Shown here in pieces: positions 25,793 through 38,069 of a stretch of 64,000 nucleotides of DNA. Numbering within the stretch: position 1 is the stretch's first letter; each line of letters begins with the position of its first letter. The position numbers and the translations under genes were made by a program. Origin of the DNA: Moorella sp. E308F (GTDB lineage: Bacteria > Bacillota > DSM-521 > Neomoorellales > Neomoorellaceae); assembly GCF_006538365.1 (NCBI RefSeq), contig NZ_BJKN01000001.1, positions 1-64,000 on the forward strand. The letters run 5' to 3'. The notes below the pieces were generated by a model. That model saw only the letters and a list, made by a program, of their open reading frames with translations, searched no databases and had not been told where the DNA came from.

Positions 25793-25824
25793 AACTTAAA
25801 AAGCGAGAGCTCTCTTATAGCCAA

Positions 25825-25938
25825 CCCCCTCCTTTTCAATACCTGGAAGGCATACCCGTTTCCCGGTACACCCCGTGGACCAGCGGTCCAGGCCAACCTG
25901 CCATGGGTTATTCCTTTAGGCAGGATGGCTCGGAGGAT
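25825..25938 (-). promoter_or_regulatory. Molybdenum/tungsten cofactor (Moco/Tuco-type) riboswitch
   Basis: On the minus strand: a closing helix CCTCC/GGAGG, the segment GAGCCATCCTGCCTAAAGGA, then CCATGGCAGGTTGGCC pairing back to it, a further arm (GGACCGCTGGTCC), then CCGGGAAACGGG and TGCCTTCCAGGT, and AAAAGGAGG. This order and these conserved strings agree with the Moco RNA motif as I remember it. Position and gene context (DUF364-modABC, terminator just downstream) fit control by Moco or tungsten cofactor. Promoter boxes further upstream are weak. Whether the aptamer prefers Moco or Tuco cannot be seen. Confidence 0.75.
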
Positions 25939-26067
25939 GTAAATATTTAAGCATATGTTCTTTATATTATTCGCTGTAAGATAGCAAATTCCTGCCGGTA
26001 GTTCTAATTTTATAATACCGCCTAAAACAGATTCCCTGGTGCTGCTGTGGGAGGTGGCAAACAGAGT

Positions 26068-29170: not shown

Positions 29171-29776
29171 TTACTCATACCTCGCCTTGAACCCAGATGC
29201 CAGGTAATAATCAAGACCCTCGTCAATCTCTATTTCCGTTAACCCGGCAGCTACCAGCATACCCATCATTTCGTTGCCCGGCGGGATCTGGTCCCCGGCT
29301 ATAACGCCCCCCAGGGATCTATGCAAATTATTTATGGTTTCCCTTGCTTTCGTATGGCAGATAACCACCCGCCCGCCTGGTTTCAACACCCGGGCCATCT
29401 CTTTTAAGGCCTTAAGTTTATGGGGAAAATGGGGGAAAGCCGAGTTGCAGATAACCTCGTCGAAAGTAGCATCCGGATAGGGTATGGAAACAACGTCGGC
29501 GCAAATGAACTCCACATTAGCGGGGAACCCTTTACTTTGCGCCCGTTCCAGCATGGCCTCGGCTATATCCAGGGCCACTATCCGGCCAGCAGGGCCTACG
29601 GCAGCCAGTAAATAGGGAATTAATATCCCTGTGCCGCAACCCACATCTAACACCGTGCTGCCGGGAGCAATGTTCAATCCTTTAATAATTGTTTCCAGCT
29701 TGGCTTTTTCTTCCGGCGCACACAGGCTGTCCCAAATATCAGCCTTGCTGTTAAAATACTCGCGGTGGGTAAGCAT
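29171..29776 (-). CDS. Class I SAM-dependent methyltransferase
   Basis: A 201-residue methyltransferase from ATG 29776 (MLTHREYFNSKADIWDSL), GGAGGGA five bases upstream. Motif I VLDVGCGTGILIPYL, acidic motif II ALDIAEAM, motif post-II CADVVSIPYPDATFD and motif III LKPGGRVVICHTKAR. It lies last in the operon of a zinc/manganese-type ABC transporter, its start within 41 bases of the permease stop. Substrate unknown; co-occurrence with a metal importer suggests a metal-ligand or cofactor pathway (inference). Confidence 0.85.
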   Translation of the reverse strand: MLTHREYFNSKADIWDSLCAPEEKAKLETIIKGLNIAPGSTVLDVGCGTGILIPYLLAAVGPAGRIVALDIAEAMLERAQSKGFPANVEFICADVVSIPYPDATFDEVICNSAFPHFPHKLKALKEMARVLKPGGRVVICHTKARETINNLHRSLGGVIAGDQIPPGNEMMGMLVAAGLTEIEIDEGLDYYLASGFKARYE

Positions 29777-29816
29777 ATAACTCCCTCCTGCGCTCGCATA
29801 TTGTTTTAACCCGCAA

Positions 29817-30641
29817 TCACTCATTTTCTTGCCACTGTTTTACCTTGCGTTTCGGGGAGAAAATTGTTGCCAGGACAAAAATAACCGCCGAAGTAAGGAC
29901 TATCGCCGCCCCGCTGGGAACATCCAGGATATATGAAACACCAAGCCCGGCCCAGCAGGAAAGGACACCAAAAAGCGCCGCCAGGAAGAACATGCGTTTC
30001 AAGCTATAGGTGAGTTGGTAAGCAGCGGCTGCCGGATTTAAAATCAGATTAAAAATTAACAGCCCGCCAATGCTGCGCAGGGAAGCGGTTACCGTTGCTC
30101 CGGTAAGAAAAAGGATACTGTAAAAGATGGCGTCGGCAGGTATGCCTACCGCCCGGGCCATTTCCCGGTGAAAGATAACCGCCTGGATCTCTTTAAAAAA
30201 CATGACAACCAGCCCGGTAACTATGATCGTCACCACGGCCAGTAGCCAGAGATCCGCTGTCGTGACCGTCAGGATACTGCCCCATAGGAGTTCTAAGGCC
30301 TGGGTTTTGGGACCGGGCAATAGGCCCATAAAAAGGAAAGCCAGACCCATAGTTATGGAAAATATGATGCCGATGGGCGTATCGAGGTTAAATTCGCCCC
30401 GGTCGGCCAGGGGCCCGATGACAGCCGCCCCTATCAGGCTGAAGAGTATGGCTCCCAGCAATGGTTCAAAGCCCAGCCAGGTAGCAAAGAGGGCCCCGGC
30501 AAAGGCGGCATGGGAAAGGGAAACCCCAATAAAAGAAAGGTGCATAGTAACGACAAAAACGCCGATTAAGGAGCAGGCTACGCCGGCCAGCAGGCCGGCC
30601 AGCAAGGCCTCCTGCATAAACTTGTAGCTTAAAATACACAT
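29817..30641 (-). CDS. Metal ABC transporter permease (ZnuB type), second system
   Basis: A ~274-residue ABC-3 permease from ATG 30641 (MCILSYKFMQEALLAGLLAG) behind AGGAAG. Phrases typical of zinc/manganese permeases are MHLSFIGVSLSHAAFAGALFA and GGLLIFNLILNPAAAA. Eight or nine helices. Paralogue of the permease at 5636. Operon order: binding protein, ATPase, permease, methyltransferase. Confidence 0.87.
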   Translation of the reverse strand: MCILSYKFMQEALLAGLLAGVACSLIGVFVVTMHLSFIGVSLSHAAFAGALFATWLGFEPLLGAILFSLIGAAVIGPLADRGEFNLDTPIGIIFSITMGLAFLFMGLLPGPKTQALELLWGSILTVTTADLWLLAVVTIIVTGLVVMFFKEIQAVIFHREMARAVGIPADAIFYSILFLTGATVTASLRSIGGLLIFNLILNPAAAAYQLTYSLKRMFFLAALFGVLSCWAGLGVSYILDVPSGAAIVLTSAVIFVLATIFSPKRKVKQWQENE

Positions 30642-30733
30642 TTCCTGCTTCTTCCTAAAATTAATTTGAAACACCCAGGCCGGCAGGCGGCACTACGAGA
30701 GGATGAAAATGGCAGTTGCTATTTTCAAGCAAG

Positions 30734-31459
30734 TTAAAATAGCTGCTCCAGCACCCTGTCCTGGAGAAGCTCTTCCGGGTTTCCTGTTTTCCAAATACGC
30801 CCTTTTTTCATGAGCACCAGGCGGTCGCACAATTCAGTCAACCCTGTCAGGGAATGGGTAACCATTAAAGTAGTTAAGTTGCGTTCCTTATGAATACGTT
30901 GTACCAGCTGTAATATCTGCTGCTGCGCCCGCCGGTCCAGGGAAGCGGTGGGTTCATCCAGCAGGAGAATTGACGGTTCCTGGGCCAGGGCGCGGGCGAT
31001 GGCTACCCGCTGTTGTTCGCCGCCGGAAAGATGGCCGATGGGACGCCCGGCCAAAGCCGTCATACCTACCAGCTCCAGCATGCGGTCTACTACCTGCCAA
31101 TCGCCGGGTCCCGGCCGGCGGAAAAAGCCCAGCCGTCCGTAACGCCCCATCATGACTACTTCCCTGGCCGTTACCGGCATCCGGGGATCGATGGCCGGCA
31201 ACTGGGGGACGTAGCCGATTTTACTGCGCAGGGCCGCCGGGCAGCCACGAGCCAGGTTATGGCCCAGCACCCACACTTCTCCCTGGAGCAAATGTCCCAG
31301 GCCATTGACCAGAGTTAGCAGTGTCGTTTTCCCGGCCCCATTGGGACCAATGATCCCTATTAGTTCCCCTGCTTTAACTTCTAGCGACACGCCACGCAGC
31401 GCTACATCTTCACGATAGGACACCACGGCATTTTTAATTTTAATAACTACTGGTACCAT
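30734..31459 (-). CDS. Metal ABC transporter ATP-binding protein, second system
   Basis: A 241-residue ATPase: Walker A GPNGAGKTT, Q-loop GYVPQLP, signature LSGGEQQRVAIARAL, Walker B ILLLDEPTASLD and switch His in MVTHS. Ends 92 bases before the permease start. Belongs to the zinc/manganese importer family. Confidence 0.88.
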   Translation of the reverse strand: MVPVVIKIKNAVVSYREDVALRGVSLEVKAGELIGIIGPNGAGKTTLLTLVNGLGHLLQGEVWVLGHNLARGCPAALRSKIGYVPQLPAIDPRMPVTAREVVMMGRYGRLGFFRRPGPGDWQVVDRMLELVGMTALAGRPIGHLSGGEQQRVAIARALAQEPSILLLDEPTASLDRRAQQQILQLVQRIHKERNLTTLMVTHSLTGLTELCDRLVLMKKGRIWKTGNPEELLQDRVLEQLF

Positions 31460-31471
31460 TGCTTTTCTTCC

Positions 31472-32326
31472 CTATTTGGGGAGGGCCGCCAGCAGCAATT
31501 CGACGTTTTTTTGTAAAGCCTGGTCCCATTTATCTGTTCCAGGGAGGCCGCCGGGAAAGTTGGAAATAGTAACCCTGGGTATTCCCAGTTCCTTAGCAAT
31601 ACCGGCGCCGGCATCCGGCCCGCTCTGGAGATTATCAATTATTAATTGCACACCTGCCTGCCGGCCCTTATCTACCAGTTCCTTTACCCGCTGCGGTGTA
31701 AGTTCTTCCGGACGGCCATAAGTACCTATAACCTGGAAACCGGCCCAGCGAACAAAGTCCTCTTGCTGGTCGGAGCAAAGAACTTTCAAGTTCCCCGCGC
31801 CCGCTGCCTGCAGGCGGGCCTGCGTTTCTTGTCCCACCCTGGCTGCCTGGTCAACAGCTTCCTGGGCCTTAGCCTTATAGTAATCTTTATTAGCCGGGTC
31901 TTTCTCTGCGAGTATACTGGCTACTGCCTGTAACGCCTGCTGCCATACCGGTGGTGCCATCCAGTTACCCTTTACTGCCACCGGAACTACTTCTAACTGG
32001 GGATTATTGGCGGAAGCCACCAATTCTTTGGTAAAAAGTTTACCCTGCCAGTCATGCATCAGGAAAACCCGGGCCTGGCTAAGTACGGCTACATCGGAAG
32101 GCTTGATGTCGAAGTGTCCGGGGCAGGAAGCCGGCGGGATAATATTCTTTACTTCCACCTTGTCCTTACCTACTTCCTGCACAGCAGTCATCAAAAGAGA
32201 GGTGCCGGTTACTACCTTAAGCTTATTACTCGTCTGCCGGGAATTACAACCAGTAACAACAAATAGCAAAAGGAACAGTAAAACGATATTGGCCATGAAA
32301 CGAGCCATATTTCTTGAGGAAAACAT
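31472..32326 (-). CDS. Metal ABC transporter substrate-binding lipoprotein, second system
   Basis: A 284-residue TroA/ZnuA-like protein with a lipoprotein signal (LLFLLLFVVTGC). Metal-site candidates are the His in SCPGHFDIKPSD, the His in FLMHDWQGK and carboxylates near IIDNLQSGPDAGA. The Cys in ASCPGH is unlike the usual zinc proteins (normally PHxYEP) and could be a ligand, so the metal may differ from that of the first system. Behind an unusual 5' leader with a terminator. Confidence 0.82.
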   Translation of the reverse strand: MFSSRNMARFMANIVLLFLLLFVVTGCNSRQTSNKLKVVTGTSLLMTAVQEVGKDKVEVKNIIPPASCPGHFDIKPSDVAVLSQARVFLMHDWQGKLFTKELVASANNPQLEVVPVAVKGNWMAPPVWQQALQAVASILAEKDPANKDYYKAKAQEAVDQAARVGQETQARLQAAGAGNLKVLCSDQQEDFVRWAGFQVIGTYGRPEELTPQRVKELVDKGRQAGVQLIIDNLQSGPDAGAGIAKELGIPRVTISNFPGGLPGTDKWDQALQKNVELLLAALPK

Positions 32327-32383: not shown

Positions 32384-32432
32384 AACAAAAAACCATGGAA
32401 GCAGCTCCGCGCCGGCGAAGAACCTCCATGGT
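32384..32432 (-). terminator. Leader terminator upstream of the metal-binding protein gene
   Basis: ACCATGGAGG pairs with CTTCCATGGT around a G/C-rich loop that itself can pair, followed by TTTTTTG on the minus strand. It sits ~60 bases before the start codon, inside the 5' leader, indicating transcription attenuation. Confidence 0.65.
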
Positions 32433-32600
32433 TCTCTTTTTACCCTGGCTACCTGCCAGGTAATTTACCCGTTAGTTATATTCGTCACTGGTTTAAAAAT
32501 TCCTCCTTTGGAGGCTTCTGAACAGCAAAAAACGGCCCTTTCCCTCATTTGTGCTGATGCCCCCGCCGTCACGGCACCGCCGGTGAAAAACGTTTAATGC
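32418..32600 (-). promoter_or_regulatory. Uncharacterised 5' leader of the second metal transporter operon
   Basis: From roughly 32600 to 32432 the leader contains stems GCCGTGACGGC, CCTCC-AAA-GGAGG and CCTGGCAGGTAGCCAGG, and the hairpin AGAACC-ATGGA-GGTTCT (32418-32434), which is mutually exclusive with the terminator at 32384-32432. A seven-codon ORF (GTGACGAATATAACTAAC...) lies behind GGAGGA. It does not match a riboswitch class that I recognise. A weak TTGATT-N17-TTAAAC promoter could start the transcript. Confidence 0.45.
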
Positions 32601-32616: not shown

Positions 32617-32664
32617 TCAAAAAATGCCTCGCATAAGAGGTTTTATCTCTCTATGCGAGGCTTT
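32617..32664 (-). terminator. Intrinsic terminator after the FadH-like gene
   Basis: GCCTCGCATA pairs with TATGCGAGGC around a 16-base loop that forms a further stem, followed on the minus strand by ATTTTTTGATT. Confidence 0.85.
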
Positions 32665-37658: not shown

Positions 37659-37707
37659 AAATCCTCCCTTACCTCACCTTCACCATGGCCGTGGTTTAAC
37701 GGTGAAA

Positions 37708-37938
37708 TCTCACGGGCAGGTCTCCTGGCTCGGGTTCAACGCTCCCTGCTGCCTTCCCAGTCCAGCACTCAGCTCCTTTAGATGCACTACTCCGGGTACT
37801 TCTTAATACTATAAGAAATTAACCCGTAGCTGTAAATATCTTGCTGAGTGCTGGACCAGTGGCTCCTTTAGCAGGTACTCCCCCTCACAGTGGCGGCACC
37901 GCGCCGGACTTGCACCGGCTTCCCTGGCACCCGCGAGA
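37708..37938 (-). promoter_or_regulatory. Cobalamin (B12/AdoCbl) riboswitch
   Basis: On the minus strand: closing helix TCTCGCGGG/CCCGTGAGA, GGGAAGCCGGTGCAAGTCCGG, GCCGCCACTG, GGGAAGGC and the B12 box AGCCAGGAGACCTGCC. Between CCACTG and TGGGAAGG there is a long extra arm with 14-bp pairing (GTCCAGCACTCAGC with GCTGAGTGCTGGAC). Downstream TTTCACCGTTAAACCACGGC may form an antiterminator against the hairpin at 37624-37658. It controls nrdDG. Confidence 0.88.
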
Positions 37939-38069
37939 ATCCTTTTCTGGTAATGTTCAACACAGTAATCTTCGACAAAGATGAGGCAAAATCCTGCCGC
38001 TATATAACCTTCTCATCCCCCGGTTAAGCACTGTTTTTATTCACCTGGGGCTATTTTTCCTTGCTGGAA

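Follow-up and report, generated by a model that had tools for sequence, protein, structure and literature searches.

The leader in front of a metal ABC transporter operon of Moorella sp. E308F belongs, judged by its sequence, to a widespread element that has no match in Rfam. It is probably the Moorella copy of an RNA attenuator that governs the acquisition of nickel, and possibly of cobalt, and that would be read by a trans-acting factor at nickel scarcity. Two structures, their covariation and the set of genes that the element precedes are apparent from the compared sequences.

Nickel is required by CO dehydrogenase, [NiFe] hydrogenase, urease and lactate racemase, a dependence most marked in acetogens, syntrophs and sulfate reducers. 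To our knowledge, nickel sensing in organisms without NikR is a largely open question. The element described here seems to be a common means by which many anaerobic bacteria respond to nickel shortage. It yields a candidate regulon comprising importers, FmdE, CobN-like proteins, methyltransferases, LarE and a nickel-free hydrogenase, and it links FmdE-like, DUF3842, DUF4198 and CPGHFD-class ZnuA-like proteins, the functions of which are unassigned, to nickel acquisition.

The leader of the Moorella operon

The operon is located on the minus strand of the window, i.e., the whole analysed stretch of 64,000 nucleotides (contig NZ_BJKN01000001.1, positions 1 to 64,000). Its genes code for a ZnuA-family metal-binding lipoprotein of 284 amino acids, which contains the sequence CPGHFD (31472-32326, PF01297), an ABC transporter ATPase (30734-31459, PF00005), an ABC-3 family permease (29817-30674, PF00950) and a SAM-dependent methyltransferase (29171-29824, assigned by domain search). 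At other loci, too, methyltransferases are repeatedly encoded downstream or in the vicinity of the element.

On the strand of the downstream genes, the leader comprises in 5' to 3' order a putative promoter, the hairpins P1 and P2, an intrinsic terminator and a U-run. The putative promoter (32480-32504), read by script, consists of AGGAATT (32504-32498), an 11-base spacer and GACGAAT (32486-32480), an arrangement that resembles the SigH consensus; a similar AGGAATT...CGAATA block was seen by eye upstream in other Moorella leader copies. P1 (32444-32460, -10.0 kcal/mol) reads CCUGGC-AGGUA-GCCAGG and has a loop of the class ANGNA, while P2 (32418-32436, -7.5 kcal/mol), the proposed antiterminator, reads GAGAACC-AUGGA-GGUUCUU and has a loop of the class AYGRA. 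The terminator hairpin (32391-32433, -26.1 kcal/mol) harbours the P2 loop and the P2 5' stem within its 5' arm and is followed by the U-run evident in the sequence (32387-32392).

An earlier note on this DNA had described a terminator and a competing AGAACC-AUGGA-GGUUCU hairpin before a metal ABC operon, and both are indeed present on the minus strand, in front of the ZnuA-type operon. The mutual exclusion of the two structures, as claimed in the note, is likewise borne out, since P2 (32436-32418) and the terminator (32433-32391) share bases. A possible seven-codon open reading frame did not hold up: its ATG is part of the P2 loop and is replaced by ACG in 39 of the 81 homologous elements listed. 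A leader-peptide attenuator was rejected on the same count, as the start codon is not conserved. Regarding the span of 32384-32600 that had been taken as the leader, its downstream part is conserved, but positions 32533-32600 are unmatched in any other of the 18 family genomes compared.

The 271-base leader folds with a z-score of -2.55, and equally stable folds were obtained in 2 of 200 shuffles. In simulated growing transcripts P1 and P2 form earliest, and the terminator replaces this state once its 3' arm has been made. A motif finder run over the window returned the leader element as a single motif and no second one.

Other features were noted on the minus strand of the window. One is a further strong inverted repeat (GCCTCGCATAGAG...CTCTTATGCGAGGC) at 32619-32661, which precedes T-rich sequence and probably terminates transcription of the FMN oxidoreductase gene upstream. 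A Moco (molybdenum/tungsten cofactor) riboswitch (Rfam RF01055, 86.9 bits) is found at 25812-25947, and a cobalamin riboswitch (RF00174, 95.9 bits) at 37698-37949, some 5 kb distant from the leader element.

Occurrence and covariation of the element

Twelve of 18 family genomes carry DNA matching the leader, the Moorella genome itself included, and one of them (G009) has three copies. Except for two relatives, the family matches start at 32507 or further downstream. Other copies in the family precede FmdE-like, CobN-like and other methyltransferase genes (by eye), the CobN assignment being confirmed for locus L153, and in some relatives the stems of P1 are changed in sequence with the pairing kept. 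The check suggested in the earlier note, namely to gather homologous leaders and look for covariation, thus came out in its favour: the leader is kept in these 12 genomes, and the terminator pairs covary. At one locus in G009 (L038; G009:C1:1697000-1701500), the leader stands before a seemingly truncated ABC permease remnant and a methyltransferase gene (by eye), as if this were a decayed duplicate of the operon. In a close relative (G004:C1:1381786-1382594), the ZnuA-like gene is split into two pieces with stops, and the leader is 95% identical to that of the window.

A covariance model (R1) built on 15 leader copies matched 17 of 22 genomes of the class and 42 of 398 genomes of the phylum at an E-value of 0.001. 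Weaker matches at L065 and L077 contain tandem AUGGA/AUGAA hairpins before cbiM (genes by eye); the AYGRA hairpin is missing from the weak matches L073, L074, L080, L093, L094 and L095, which resemble ordinary terminators. A scan of a named genome collection with the pattern AACCAYGRAGGTT-N(5-35)-TYCRTGGTTTT yielded at least 119 stretches, 80 of which were taken as loci and amount to 81 matches, compared to about one match that would be expected by chance if all bases were equally frequent, as roughly estimated by hand. By title, the matches listed stem mostly from Clostridia and their relatives, but also from Deltaproteobacteria, two Latescibacterota and one Actinomycetota MAG. Up to 10 element matches occur in a single genome, and several of them precede nickel-type operons. 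A 23-base match in contig 2 was dismissed as a chance match, as it lies within a ruvB-like gene (by eye). For the gene searches discussed below, 80 motif-positive genomes were defined as matches of a model termed R2; these were used as called by the model, the E-values of which are rough.

In agreement with the earlier note, which could assign the leader to no known RNA class, a covariance search of the element against Rfam 15 gave no match at gathering score. Matches at loose thresholds were regarded as chance, the best one being mir-302 (E 0.32, 20.1 bits versus 55 needed). Among the open-access PMC papers listed in the literature searches, none described a nickel RNA attenuator, and no paper on a nickel riboswitch or on DUF3842 was returned.

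The general form of the element comprises P1 with the loop ANGNA, or elsewhere NGNA, a variable linker and P2 (AACC-AYGRA-GGUU), the loop and 5' arm of which double as part of the terminator. The pattern classes Y and R allow both variable loop bases to combine freely with their terminator partners, mismatches included. Among the 81 matches listed, the loop Y and the terminator arm form C-G (39), U-A (33) or U-G (9) and never C-A, and the loop R and the terminator arm form A-U (56), G-U (15) or G-C (10) and never A-C. Both positions are therefore pairable in 81 of 81 cases, with 0 mismatches; the corresponding Fisher values of 8e-15 (Y position) and 2e-6 (R position) derive from related sequences and hence are not exact probabilities.

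In alignment A4, which retained 77 of 80 candidates (L106, L144 and L170, judged chance, as well as L120 and two records starting at P1 are not part of it), the terminator helix shows standard pairs in 693 of 693 cells, and P2 is paired in 87.4% of cells versus 79.9% in shuffles. Most of the P2 stem is uninformative, because it is fixed by the search pattern. The fifth P2 pair is Watson-Crick in 54 of the 81 matches listed (29.0 expected from base counts) and G-U in 3, i.e., pairable in 57. The next two pairs are at or near expectation (28 and 19 Watson-Crick pairs versus 25.2 and 20.3), and the one after those is slightly above (25 versus 18.8). The pairing counts for the loop and terminator and for the fifth P2 pair used all 81 matches.

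P1 was evaluated in 76 of the 81 regions, leaving aside L106, L144 and L170 (judged chance) and L167 and L168 (script rules). Over the roughly 110 bases preceding P2, 24 of these regions have a hairpin of at least five pairs with the loop A.G.A (shuffle mean 0.35). The loop.G.A occurs in 16 of 76 (shuffle mean 0.73), a post hoc count, as the tetraloop class was added after viewing the sequences. Both classes taken together account for 39 regions, while 200 shuffles gave 1.3 on average and no more than 5; four control loops were present in 0-1 of 76 regions, and P1 was not found by these rules in 37 of 76. The distance between P1 and P2 varies from about 5 to more than 70 bases. The arm spacing adopts 20 different values from 7 to 35 among the 81 matches listed and is evenly distributed over the helical phase (29, 25 and 27 of 81).

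Genes behind the element and the likely signal

A same-strand open reading frame of at least 80 amino acids starts within 400 bases downstream of 67 of the 81 matches listed, at a median distance of 54 bases. Among the first 25 of 50 Pfam families represented in these 67 first open reading frames are BPD_transp_1 (9), SBP_bac_5 and Methyltransf_25 (6 each), CbiM, DUF3842 and FmdE (5 each), the TonB-dependent plug and the ECF S component (3 each), and [FeFe] hydrogenase, FecCD and ZnuA (2 each). One first open reading frame codes for LarE (284 bits versus a cut-off of 150), the sulfur transferase of the nickel-pincer cofactor. Among the genes behind the element are those for NikA/NikB-like transporters, CbiM, LarE, FmdE, CobN-like, DUF4198 and DUF3842 proteins and [FeFe] hydrogenase, and this range spans Bacillota, Deltaproteobacteria and Latescibacterota. 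In genomes with 5-10 model matches, BLAST to reference clusters placed the motifs before nik-type operons and genes for FmdE, DUF4198, CbiM, DUF3842 and methyltransferases. The NikA/NikB-like proteins match nickel models below the cut-offs, and therefore, their substrate is a presumed one. The [FeFe] hydrogenase behind the element in Syntrophomonas fits a nickel-scarcity response. A purely nickel-related role is countered by some first genes without an evident nickel link, which code for an ABC exporter (L105), DUF1893 (L108) and DUF3450 (L165), and a further case is L169.

Since the other targets of the element are nickel/cobalt-type genes, the signal is likely nickel, perhaps cobalt, and not zinc or manganese; the CbiM and CobN-like targets mean that cobalt could be the signal. 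The zinc- or manganese-responsive RNA envisaged in the earlier note is disfavoured by these same targets, which include nickel/cobalt-type uptake genes, LarE and [FeFe] hydrogenase. Zinc/manganese control was rejected, as the present leader is common to nickel-type genes, whereas another ZnuABC-type locus of the Moorella genome (L262) lies beside two Fur-family genes (by eye), the vicinity of which is the usual place of zinc control.

At a Syntrophomonas locus (L113), a Moco riboswitch and a nickel-type attenuator (373-491 and 752-795) are located less than 300 bases apart on the same strand before [FeFe] hydrogenase. In Clostridium sp. D53t1, the Rfam 5_ureB RNA (RF02514; L096, 2720-3011, plus strand) is found near an element-bearing NikA-like gene, a possible further link to a nickel enzyme. 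Element islands at L246, L249 and L255 (genomes G089, G237 and G368) carry several radical-SAM-like genes and an ABC-2-like permease between NikA-like genes (by eye), and might serve to make or export a peptide-derived metal ligand.

Mechanism, candidate readers and related systems

According to the proposed mechanism, RNA polymerase would make P1 and next P2. Unless P2 is held, its loop and 5' arm would pair with the CUUCCAUGGUU arm further downstream, and the terminator formed in this way would stop transcription. Under nickel scarcity, an RNA-binding factor acting in trans would occupy the two ANGNA-type loops and keep P2 closed, such that termination would not occur and the uptake operon would be transcribed. 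The binding of a factor, nickel as its signal and the direction of the response are what we infer here. Naked RNA should terminate by default, because P2 is far weaker than the terminator (-7.5 versus -26.1 kcal/mol). Given default termination and uptake genes that are on at low metal, the simplest reading is that the factor is active at low nickel. Moreover, two small hairpins at variable distance resemble a protein-binding antiterminator more than an aptamer.

A canonical ANTAR (REC-ANTAR) antiterminator might act instead, the element being a dual-hairpin ANTAR target with shortened loops. The logic is alike, with two small hairpins and the second one overlapping the terminator, and the loop C-AYGRA-G falls one base short of the eut consensus AGCAANGRRGCUY given in an excerpt of PMC3369931. 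ANTAR genes are commoner in motif-positive (64/80) than in motif-negative genomes (138/318), and 24 of 29 carriers obtained via named records, a set that shares one genome with the 80, possess them. Yet, we deem this explanation unlikely: P2 has a pentaloop in the Moorella copies and, by the pattern, elsewhere, a hexaloop A..G.. occurs in 1 of 76 P1 regions (shuffles 0.87), and the search gave no ANTAR match in 16 of the 80 motif-positive genomes, including the near-complete genomes G167, G192 and G309. The broad range of P1-P2 distances also contrasts with the intolerance of EutV for a longer linker, its action being abolished by 20 additional bases in the account excerpted from PMC8934654. 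The sole ANTAR gene found in the Moorella genome adjoins a glutamine synthetase-like gene (by eye).

Were Ni(II) or Co(II) to bind the hairpins directly and promote termination, the leader would be a metal riboswitch. The element does precede metal genes, and metal-sensing riboswitch classes exist, the lithium riboswitch reportedly being an example. However, the conserved part consists of only two separate minimal hairpins at variable spacing, and at uptake genes the metal would need to oppose P2, which already is much weaker than the terminator. We consider a direct metal riboswitch improbable, and it seems less likely than a protein-read antiterminator. Very improbable in our judgement is a DNA operator, in which an inverted repeat is bound by a repressor and the look of a terminator is incidental. 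An operator is disfavoured because the arm spacing varies over all helical phases; in addition, a T-run comes next on the strand of the gene, the element is positioned 3' of the putative promoter, and P1 forms a hairpin of its own with a fixed type of loop. These features stand against the inverted repeat formed by the two arms and the precedent of E. coli, where nickel uptake is under the DNA-binding NikR (excerpt of PMC7055735).

The nickel attenuator read by a trans-acting factor might, as we tentatively suggest, amount to a novel mode of nickel sensing by RNA, in which antiterminators with two hairpins form a family that takes the place of NikR in many anaerobes and is recognised by an RNA-binding nickel sensor of a new kind. 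NikR and DUF3842 were searched for in the stronger 48 of the 80 motif-positive and in 32 of the 318 motif-negative genomes. At the family cut-off, NikR was found in 3 of 48 carriers (1 strong) and in 5 of 32 non-carriers (3 strong). There was no NikR match in the Moorella genome (G000) and none in 45 of the 48 carriers checked, which says little, because NikR is rare in non-carriers too. DUF3842 is present in 46 of 48 carriers versus 16 of 32 non-carriers, and in 28 of the 29 carriers from named records (derived from 30 of the 80 loci). Overall, 73 of 76 distinct carriers possess it, G428 and G216 being the same by the place of DUF3842 and counted once.

DUF3842, a small Rossmann-like protein sometimes encoded by the first gene behind the element, is a candidate for the sensor or the sensor's partner. 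Its predicted fold is Rossmann-like alpha/beta (pLDDT 90.5), with weak matches to the PDB, the best one to a UbiX-like flavoprotein (E 7e-4); by sequence, the search yielded no relative of known structure (best E 0.35). A role of DUF3842 as the RNA-binding protein itself was rejected, as the predicted structure contains no apparent RNA-binding fold. The link to the element is one of association and may reflect shared ancestry, given that half of the motif-negative relatives also have the protein. CsrA was rejected due to a loop mismatch: the CsrA loop is ANGGA, and 56 of the 81 matches listed have A at the fourth loop base (mostly AYGAA).

Among known systems, the ANTAR dual-hexaloop antiterminators (EutV/eut, NasR and AmiR) share with the element two hairpins, a conserved loop A and G and several copies per genome. 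The overlap of the second hairpin with the 5' arm of an intrinsic terminator was tested for and is present in the element as well. In contrast, a test for hexaloops with A1/G4 revealed pentaloops in P2 and penta- or tetraloops in P1 instead; furthermore, the linker is variable, the genes are of the nickel type and not for ethanolamine or nitrogen, and some carriers are without an ANTAR match. The element thus works like an ANTAR target but is not classed as one, because it lacks the hexaloops.

The NikR regulon of Deltaproteobacteria and E. coli, as outlined in an excerpt of PMC545781, resembles the gene set of the element in comprising nickel importers, nikK-type genes and Fe-only hydrogenase, the latter being a predicted NikR target in Desulfovibrio desulfuricans according to the same excerpt. 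Yet, NikR represses by binding DNA at an operator of its own, whereas the control proposed for the element would reside in the RNA. RNA control of nickel/cobalt homeostasis is also a property of the NiCo (czcD) riboswitch, which controls efflux and has a larger aptamer. Finally, in the LicT/SacY RAT and PyrR leaders a protein-stabilised hairpin excludes the terminator; the element follows the same exclusion logic and is set apart from these leaders by their other loop and bulge signatures.
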